In this document: piece by piece, positions 27,859 through 29,327 of the stretch | How the letters are laid out: every line of letters begins with the position of its first letter | Numbering within the stretch: position 1 is the stretch's first letter | Assembly: GCA_019059635.1 (NCBI GenBank) | Contig: JAGVRJ010000005.1 | Span: 744,001 to 808,000, forward strand | Length of the DNA stretch: 64,000 nt | Reading direction: 5' to 3' | Source of the DNA: Proales similis | Lineage: Eukaryota > Rotifera > Eurotatoria > Ploima > Proalidae | The notes under the pieces: model-generated | Told to the model about the DNA's origin: nothing | The model's database searches: none | What the model saw: only the letters and a program-made list of their open reading frames with translations | Position numbers and translations under genes: made by a program

Positions 27859-28511
27859 TCTTCATTGAGTTTGAATGAATGATGATGCATTCTTCTTGCC
27901 TCTTAAATACTGACGGAGGCACGCATCGTATTGACTCATCGAACAAAGCGGCTATGAAGCAATCTTACGAAATAATGCGAAACATCGTGTGCGTTCGTTG
28001 TATTTGCCTATCATGTGAATCGTCATCGTTTGACTGTGCACATTGCCAACTTGATTTTCCCGATCATTCTCAGGATTATTGAATACATGCATTGACCGCC
28101 TCAGTTGAACCGATATTTCGACAGATGAGTCATTCGATTCAGAGAAGCAATAAACGCAGGGTAAAATAAATTGGTTTGCACCACTCGATGCAAAAGAAAG
28201 GGCTTTGGACGAAGTAACAAAGGGTGCCAATTATTGACGGGTCCACACAAACTAAAACGTGCTGATCGGAATTATCAACGAATTGAAAAAAAGGAAATAA
28301 AAAATCATGCCCTTCAAGATCAAAGTATGGAAAGCATAGGTTATAGCCAAAAGGCAATCAAGAACCCTGATAGCCTTGTTGTTAGACGTAGATGTCTCTG
28401 GACAGCGGTGTGGACTAATTTATTCGCTTAATTATGCTAATTGTGGTGAAATCAACCATCGCTCTGTTGGCTAGTGTCTGCTTAAATATGAGAAAGCGGC
28501 CAGCAAAAGGC
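27859..28511. other. Intergenic region upstream of the first U1 gene
   Basis: No supported coding sequence. The last about 70 bp should hold the proximal sequence element of an snRNA promoter. I could not find a block clearly shared with the region upstream of the second U1 gene at the same distance. Confidence 0.35.
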
Positions 28512-28675
28512 ATACTTACCTGGCGCAATTGTAAAGGCGATCAAGAACTCCTTACGATCCAGCCGAGACTTGACCATTGCACTACCGGCCAAGTTGACGT
28601 TGGCGATTTCCTCAAATGAAGGAAACTCGGGCGCATAATTTCTGAGAGTAGGGACTGCGTTCGCGCTGTCCCGTA
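28512..28675 (+). ncRNA. U1: U1 spliceosomal snRNA, canonical copy
   Basis: Starts with the invariant ATACTTACCTGGC, whose ACTTACCTG pairs with 5' splice sites. Stem-loop I pairs GTAAAGG with CCTTAC (one bulge) around a U1-70K-type loop GATCAAGAA. Stem-loop II shows the U1A-binding loop ATTGCAC. Stem-loop III pairs TTTCCT with AGGAAA. The Sm site is AATTTCTGAG, and stem-loop IV reads GGGACTGCGTTCGCGCTGTCCC, as in animal U1. Length about 164 nt matches human U1. Role: recognises 5' splice sites at the first step of spliceosome assembly. The exact 3' end is inferred. Confidence 0.93.
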
Positions 28676-28950
28676 CATTCAAATCAAATGAAAATTTCCT
28701 TTCTCTTCTTCAAACTTCTTCAAACTTCTTCCACTCAATTCTTGTTTCGTTTCCCGGTTCAAATAAGATTCTCTGGGAGAGCTTCTCTTTTAAGTCGCAA
28801 GGCTCCTCCATATACGCAGATGGCGCTGGTCGAAACATCTATAATTAATAATGTGGCCAGTTGGTTGCCGGGAGCATGGCGGCATAAACATTACCACGTG
28901 AATAATTCGAATGAATTCAATATATTAAAGTGGTTCGTGCTCGGAAAAGC

Positions 28951-29113
28951 ATACTTACTTGGCGTTATTGCTACGGCGATCACCAACACCGTGCAATCGA
29001 GATGGAGGCCCTGTCATTGCACACCGACGGAGCTGAAGCTCGCGATTTCCACTAATGTGGAAACTCGAGCGCATAATTTCTGAGAGTAGGGACTGCGTTC
29101 GCGCTGTCCCGTA
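28951..29113 (+). ncRNA. U1: Variant U1 snRNA (C9 to U) gene
   Basis: Lies about 275 bp downstream of the first copy, same strand. It begins ATACTTACTTGGC: position 9, which pairs with base -1 of the 5' splice site, is U instead of C. Stem-loop I has different sequence but still pairs (ATTGC with GCAAT, ACGG with CCGT). Its loop is GATCACCAA, differing from the GATCAxGAA type. Stem-loop II keeps ATTGCACACC, close to the U1A consensus. Stem-loop III pairs TTTCCAC with GTGGAAA. The last about 45 nt, including the Sm site and stem IV, are identical to copy 1. Compensatory stem changes argue against a decayed pseudogene. Confidence 0.88.
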
Positions 29114-29327
29114 CAACTAAATAACAAAAAAATGAAAAGATTTCTTTCCCCTTCATCTCTTAATTGGAGTGCAAGACGAAACGAAGTGTCGAAGATCTGG
29201 TTTATTCGGCTCAGTTTTATTATCTCAACAAAATTAAGAGCATCAACATCAACGGGAAAAGAGTTCATCTCGATTCTTTTGCTTGAAATTAACGGAAAAC
29301 ATTTTTTTTGCTTAAACTAGATGGAAA

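Follow-up and report, generated by a model that had tools for sequence, protein, structure and literature searches.

The 5' end of U1 snRNA is held to be almost invariant, since one sequence has to suit every donor. The window (the whole stretch of DNA analysed, 64,000 nt from the monogonont rotifer Proales similis) holds two U1 genes in tandem, the second of which is changed at a base facing the exon side of the 5' splice site. The locus thus raises the question of whether this second gene, U1b, is a working U1 and, if so, which introns it would read. The evidence makes it probable that U1b is a working second U1 gene in a two-decoder U1 system, which would be transcribed, assembled into an snRNP and able to select donors through its own pairing. 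The two genes and the segments that matter for their comparison are located as follows.

28512..28674, + strand: U1a, canonical U1 snRNA gene, ACTTACCTG
28951..29112, + strand: U1b, variant U1 snRNA gene
28953..28961, + strand: 5' splice-site decoder of U1b, ACTTACTTG, with the changed base at 28959
29069..29115, + strand: 3' stretch of U1b, 47 nt (Sm site, SL4 and 3 nt past the model), identical in U1a (counterpart 28631-28677)

A cmscan search of the window returns exactly two matches at the gathering score, both to the U1 family (Rfam RF00003) and both over the full model, 1-166. U1a scores 129.1 bits (E 2.4e-32) and U1b, which starts 276 bp downstream on the same strand, scores 118.1 bits (E 3.5e-29) against a gathering score of 69.5. 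The 5' ends read ATACTTACCTGG in U1a and ATACTTACTTGG in U1b, and their sole difference is a C-to-U change at nucleotide 9 (C9U), which in the standard register lies opposite donor position -1. The preliminary description of the locus had reported this change in the second U1 gene, and both the sequence and the cmscan alignment confirm it. Relative to the expected U1 5' end, AUACUUACCUG, U1b differs at that one base and is identical at the remaining ten. Judged from its sequence, C9U marks a variant U1 and is no failure of U1 family membership. Across the whole alignment 35 of 167 columns differ between the two genes (gaps included), and with 132 of 167 columns identical the U1b copy is not a recent one. 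The last 47 nt are identical in both genes while the 5' part is heavily diverged, which points to strong constraint or gene conversion in the 3' stretch.

The preliminary description had also called U1b structurally intact, with paired substitutions in stems I and III that a decaying copy would not keep. In the covariance-model alignment, U1b keeps 39 of 46 consensus pairs and U1a keeps 40, although 24 paired columns are substituted between them. When 24 substitutions are placed at random in U1a, 26.5 +- 2.6 pairs survive, with a maximum of 38 in 5000 trials, so the claim that U1b is no decaying copy is upheld; these pair counts come from a cmscan alignment that is itself fitted to the structure and therefore lean towards pairing. 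Compensated pairs do exist, but of the eight pairs changed on both sides most are in SL2 (five), with two in SL1 and one in SL3. Intactness holds for the pairs and the full-model match and does not extend to two other features. When folded alone, U1b has a minimum-energy fold that differs from the U1 fold, whereas that of U1a resembles U1; the structure of U1b is accordingly judged by its covariance-model fold. In addition, the loop that forms the U1-70K site is altered.

28978..28987, + strand: SL1 loop of U1b (U1-70K site), GATCACCAAC, in which a conserved G is changed relative to GAUCAaGAAG in the cmscan alignment

This loop reads GAUCACCAAC in U1b and GAUCAAGAAC in U1a, compared with the Rfam consensus GAUCAaGAAG and the membership pattern GAUCANGAAG. 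The U1A loop, CAUUGCAC, is present in both genes, and the Sm site and SL4 of U1b are aligned by cmscan. Despite the change in its U1-70K loop, U1b is, on the aligned structure, no decayed copy.

The flanks of both genes carry elements that recur at the snRNA genes of this genome.

28390..28399, + strand: distal promoter element of U1a, AGATGTCTCT, 2 mismatches
28684..28694, + strand: 3' box of U1a, TCAAATGAAAA
28818..28827, + strand: distal promoter element of U1b, AGATGGCGCT, at -133, 0 mismatches, the single exact copy within the window
28919..28929, + strand: TATA-like box of U1b, AATATATTAAA, at about -32, found by eye and given no chance estimate
29128..29138, + strand: 3' box-like element of U1b, AAAAATGAAAA, 1 mismatch to TNAAATGNAAA, a consensus drawn by eye from these genes

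The distal motif, GTAGATGGCGCT, was obtained by an expectation-maximization (EM) search of the 200 bp upstream of seven snRNA genes, with U1b excluded. A direct 18-nt promoter comparison had yielded matches of low quality in which the shared element could be made out by eye, and the EM search then recovered it. Elements like AGATGGCGCT lie upstream of all eight snRNA genes found, with 0-2 mismatches and in inverted orientation at U4, and the element is exact at U1b, like those of U2a and U6. The exact form occurs in 9 of 1500 random 200-bp windows. A TATA-like stretch is seen by eye at -40 to -18 in all eight genes. In vertebrates, a TATA box separates Pol II from Pol III snRNA promoters; since a TATA-like stretch near -30 is present here at U1, U2, U4 and U5 as well as at U6, that rule seems inapplicable in this genome. 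An ATTATG promoter element has no good copy at U1b (3 mismatches), and the same is true of U6. A match to the 3' box consensus with at most 1 mismatch occurs in 59 of 3000 random 40-bp windows. The integrity, promoter and 3' box of U1b fit a live snRNA gene, one that would be transcribed.

The wider snRNA set was searched in the genome of 32,716,893 bases on 15 contigs. Among the 120 listed homologues of the flanking DDX43 gene, the best named one comes from the rotifer Brachionus calyciflorus. Because the search scored the best candidates, gene counts are lower bounds: at least two genes each for U1, U2 and U5 and at least one each for U4 and U6. By the genes found, the major snRNA set is very small. 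With two U1 matches found, the variant thus accounts for half of them. The U5 loop is rich in uridine. Next to their human counterparts, U5 loop 1 and the U6 ACAGAG stretch show nothing unusual, which we take to mean that they offer no explanation for a shift to A. The splicing factors found comprise one U1-70K N-terminal match and three zf-U1 matches, apparently from two genes, one of them U1C. The second zf-U1 gene (L188) is presumably ZMAT5, as which it reads. With this ZMAT5-like gene and a U12 snRNA match (G000:C11:298375-298539, 56.1 bits), a minor spliceosome appears to be encoded. A single LUC7 gene was found (G000:C2:732863-733582); its subtype is unsettled by PDB or NCBIfam and was assigned from homologues, the named ones among the 120 listed being mainly Luc7-like protein 3. 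The genome search returned no second PF03194 match (LUC7L/LUC7L2), and this absence of further LUC7 paralogues may increase the importance of pairing on the exon side.

U1-like 5' ends were also sought among viral and GTDB genome contigs, neither collection being meant to hold animals. The viral contigs gave 34 stretches with the ATACTTACTTGG form and the GTDB contigs at least 119 stretches with both forms, all of which are chance matches. Among the 153 pattern matches checked, none has the U1A loop and two have a loose Sm-like string only, so that no U1b relative was found in these two collections.

Introns were called with a two-strand gene finder that joins a coding model trained on open frames to GT-AG introns of 40-120 nt with acceptor and length models. 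The donor model is limited to positions +3 to +6, and exon bases -3 to -1 are not used as donor signal. The sample of 332,861 bp, or 1% of the genome, consists of the window, six snRNA loci and 25 stretches of 10 kb, and all introns in it are ab initio calls. Introns at most 70 bases from a stretch end are left out, as are genes with a coding score below 12 or fewer than 120 coding bases. There are 343 introns away from stretch ends; 332 are required by frame or stop, and 287 have a donor posterior >=0.9. The removal of two repeated donors leaves 285 introns for the arm models and subset tests. A first census with introns of up to 600 nt contained doubtful long introns and was replaced by the 40-120 nt model, applied to 282,861 bp and then extended. 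The called introns have a median length of 60 nt within the 40-120 nt searched (n = 285), and the base before the acceptor AG is A in 119, C in 92, T in 71 and G in 3 of them. Two calpain-like copies in one 10-kb stretch (L183, near 2543 and 5936) have a common CAA|GTGAGTCC donor.

The preliminary description proposed a genome-wide count of the -1 base at donors, and such a count was made on the 332,861 bp sampled. The 287 donors have G in 123, A in 92, C in 42 and T in 30 cases, compared with 71.2, 81.7, 71.9 and 62.2 expected from codon-position composition. With 92 seen against 81.7 expected, and C and T depleted, A at -1 is tolerated rather than enriched. What is distinctive about the -1A donors is their context of C at -3 and A at -2, together with the scarcity of C and T at -1. 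No exon end is commoner than CAA, seen 36 times in 287 donors against 8.8 expected (4.1x; by phase 11/4/21 against 2.7/1.5/4.6); the counts are 20 against 9.4 (2.1x) for AAA, 20 against 7.5 for AAG and 17 against 5.4 for CAG. Other exon triplets have no such peak, the largest ratios being 2.0 at -6 to -4 and 2.65 after the acceptor. When genes are resampled, CAA fails to exceed CAG in 0.9% of 2000 draws. CAA donors are uneven among stretches, with 10 of 31 in the last 50 kb sampled (L182-186) and 25 of 254 elsewhere. In the absence of gene calls, CAA is also the top triplet before the words GTAAGT and GTGAGT, but control words have about 30% A at -1 as well, so this count of triplets before GTRAGT words is weak by itself.

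An implant control was used to examine the finder. Introns were placed at random positions of coding sequence (n = 1194), in genes that were also used to train the coding model; the finder called 1057 of them, 1040 exactly. The share of CAA is 2.4% among implants, 2.6% among implant calls and 12.3% among real donors, and the control thus shows no triplet bias of the finder. Ten of the 36 CAA junctions, picked by eye as recognisable, were checked, and all ten lie inside one Pfam domain. Alignments to solved structures are gap-free at the CAA junction in PDE1, histidine ammonia-lyase and calpain, and a distant helicase has a one-residue gap there. Two such donors in the window are the following.

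22607 (first intron base), + strand: CAA|GTGAGT donor in what is probably the gene named APC5 in the preliminary description, posterior >=0.9
53613 (first intron base), - strand: CAA|GTGAGT donor of PDE1, with Pfam PDEase_I spanning the junction and a gap-free alignment to PDE1B

The four -1A donors originally cited from the window fared unequally. Those of APC5 (20646/7, AAA|GTAAGC) and PDE1 (53613/4, CAA|GTGAGT) pass the strict filter and the other two do not: the donor of DDX54 (44000/1, CAA|GTAAGT) is called by the finder and fails the posterior filter, and that of NSMCE2 (46709) is not called.

The bases around position -1 bear on whether one decoder suffices. Were A at -1 a mismatch to a sole decoder, most of the pairing signal at -2 and -3 would be expected to vanish, as is seen for C and T. 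CA at -3,-2 is present in 36 of 92 -1A donors and in 9 of 72 -1C/T donors (Fisher p = 1.7e-4). The intron side varies with the exon side as well. Donors with GURAG account for 40 of 123 at -1G, 53 of 90 at -1A and 53 of 72 at -1C/T (A versus G, p = 1.6e-4). By this measure the intron side of -1A donors is not significantly weaker than that of -1C/T donors (p = 0.067), and matches at +3 to +6 in the first census do not differ significantly between these two classes (p = 0.11). Within the GURAG donors (n = 146) there are 20 CAA and 2 CAG ends, while the other donors (n = 139) have 15 of each. The near absence of CAG next to a strong intron side gives the impression that donors avoid full-length pairing with canonical U1. 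A bulged-C9 register of U1a was considered and rejected; it predicts CCA, of which 2 were seen against 4.4 expected.

The exon triplets of the 285 introns were then modelled as the product of a phase-matched background and a pairing term for nucleotides 9-11 of the U1 arm. The log-likelihood is -1068.3 for C9 alone and -1038.7 for C9 with U9, and it stays at -1068.3 for C9 with A9 or G9. The mixture weight of 0.71 for U9 is a fit and not a fraction of usage. When all 64 arms are scanned blind, UUG, the arm of U1b, comes first as a single decoder (-1049.3), and the canonical CUG ranks fourth (-1068.3). UUG is also the best partner for CUG, the next being UUA (-1052.0), and as an arm UUG has a lead of 16.8 log units over UUU. 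Among 2016 arm pairs scanned coarsely, the eight best listed all include UUG, with CUG and UUG together in fifth place, 1.0 unit behind the leading pair. UUG is the best second decoder in ten of ten overlapping data sets (the whole, two halves, the window, the rest, the last 50 kb, stricter flanks, stricter posterior, GURAG and non-GURAG), a replication made of splits of one data set from one genome. CUG is the best single decoder in the non-GURAG set only. Duplex energies were predicted for 9-nt donors and the 11-nt U1 ends. U1a gives -11.8 kcal/mol with CAG|GUAAGU and -5.3 kcal/mol with CAA|GUAAGU, and U1b gives -9.1 and -9.4 kcal/mol, respectively, so that U1b is predicted to bring CAA donors up to the strength of good ones while CAG is still tolerated.

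The near equality of the two U1b energies also suits a simpler account, by which U1b is an expressed but ordinary isoform whose U9 wobbles with G at -1 and which serves all donors, the CAA class being due to other factors, such as uridines of U5 loop 1 that pair with A at -1 and -2 or LUC7L3 as a stabiliser of the exon side. U5 loop 1 has been proposed as the exon-side reader, and in human cells knockdown of LUC7L3 makes splicing turn from sites whose U5 loop 1 potential is strong to others (PMC11732430). The U-rich U5 loop and the LUC7L3 type of the one LUC7 gene found also suit this account. The identity of the triplet nevertheless makes this account unlikely. U5 uridines would favour AAA and with it A at -3, yet CAA exceeds AAA in number and ratio, UUG outperforms UUU, and the data favour C at -3, the partner of U1 G11. 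It is moreover at donors with a strong intron side that CAA is preferred to CAG. The human exon-side class is AG//GU and not AA//GU, and the class is similar in worm, fly, fish and Arabidopsis (PMC11732430).

Two further accounts concern the role of U1b rather than the reader of the exon. U1a could be constitutive and U1b a regulatory isoform, enriched in a stage or in stem cells, whose action is limited to a few alternative donors or is dominant-negative. The planarian variants U1C1 and U1C2 have the same C-to-U change and are enriched in neoblasts, and their authors offer both readings (PMC6312358). The chance of such a role is slim here, since the -1A class (92 of 287) is mixed with -1G donors in the same genes and is too broad for a minor switch, and since the distal element is closer to the shared motif at U1b than at U1a. 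That U1b is a recently silenced pseudogene, still intact in appearance, is scarcely credible. The altered U1-70K loop and the lowest-energy fold of U1b alone would suit it, but the pairs kept through so many paired-column substitutions argue against decay, the U1A loop, Sm region and SL4 are intact, promoter and 3' box are present, and the divergence from U1a indicates that the copy is not recent.

The preferred reading remains the two-decoder system, in which the 5' end of U1b, ACUUACUUG, would read -1A donors, best of all CAA|GURAG, through a continuous Watson-Crick helix of U9:A-1, U10:A-2 and G11:C-3. The adjoining U1a would read (C/A)AG|GU donors. Introns across the genome would be divided between the two, frequently inside a single gene, giving a two-decoder U1 system for ordinary introns. 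The earlier suggestion that U1b serves -1A donors is borne out insofar as CAA is the top triplet and UUG the best of the 64 arms; a dedicated gene set is not seen, since both -1A and -1G donors occur in 35 of the 47 genes for which the filtered set includes at least three introns. The match of the donors to the changed arm supports a second, constitutive 5' splice-site decoder. Chances are about even for the stronger proposal that the C9U U1 is the main reader of donors with a strong intron side (CAA|GURAG), with U1a keeping (C/A)AG|GU, and that U1 duplication has reshaped the donor code of this genome. If true, the constraint on U1 can be escaped by duplicating the gene and changing one base, with donors following. 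Whether U1 or U5 loop 1 reads the exon side is debated, and as the two predict different bases at -3 (C and A, respectively), the matter is testable in vivo.

Several known systems share parts of this arrangement. Human vU1.3/.4 and vU1.8 are likewise U1 paralogues with a changed 5' end or changed loops (PMC13172311, PMC5159530). The C-to-T change of vU1.3/.4 is in the recognition domain and, according to its authors, could allow AT instead of GT donors (PMC13172311), so it would face a donor base other than -1, and a matching genome-wide donor class is not stated in the passages cited on human variant U1 (PMC13172311, PMC5159530). Drosophila resembles the present case in that its U1 genes are few, vary in sequence and differ in expression (PMC10645366). 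Its variants G134U and G123C are in or near the Sm site, whereas the U1b change is in the 5' splice-site decoder (PMC10645366). An engineered compensatory U1 for Fah c.706G>A restores a donor whose last exon base is A (PMC10572768); the matching change would be C9U, but unlike U1b that U1 is laboratory-made and directed at one exon. The animal Fritillaria borealis also combines a shifted donor population with duplicated splicing parts (PMC13326754). Its introns are mostly non-canonical and its two U1 versions have identical, unchanged 5' ends, so that, unlike in the case of U1b, a diverged U1 is not the route taken (PMC13326754).

The closest parallel is Schmidtea mediterranea, in which U1C1 and U1C2 have a C-to-U change at the base that anneals to donor -1 and specialised splice sites have been suggested (PMC6312358). 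U1b has the same base change, a U1 fold that is kept and changes in protein-binding loops, as these variants do (PMC6312358). Planarian U1B and U1C variants are raised 2-4 fold in sorted cells, and U1C expression is validated (PMC6312358). U1C belongs to a set of 11 validated U1 variants for which the passages cited mention no donor match, whereas U1b belongs to a pair of U1 genes, the only ones found in its genome, and agrees with the donors sampled (PMC6312358). The open-licence papers searched, as far as the passages cited extend, describe no genome with donors that suit both decoders. The C-to-U change as such is already known from planarian U1C, in another spiralian animal, and it is the match of a donor population in a two-gene U1 system that appears to be new.
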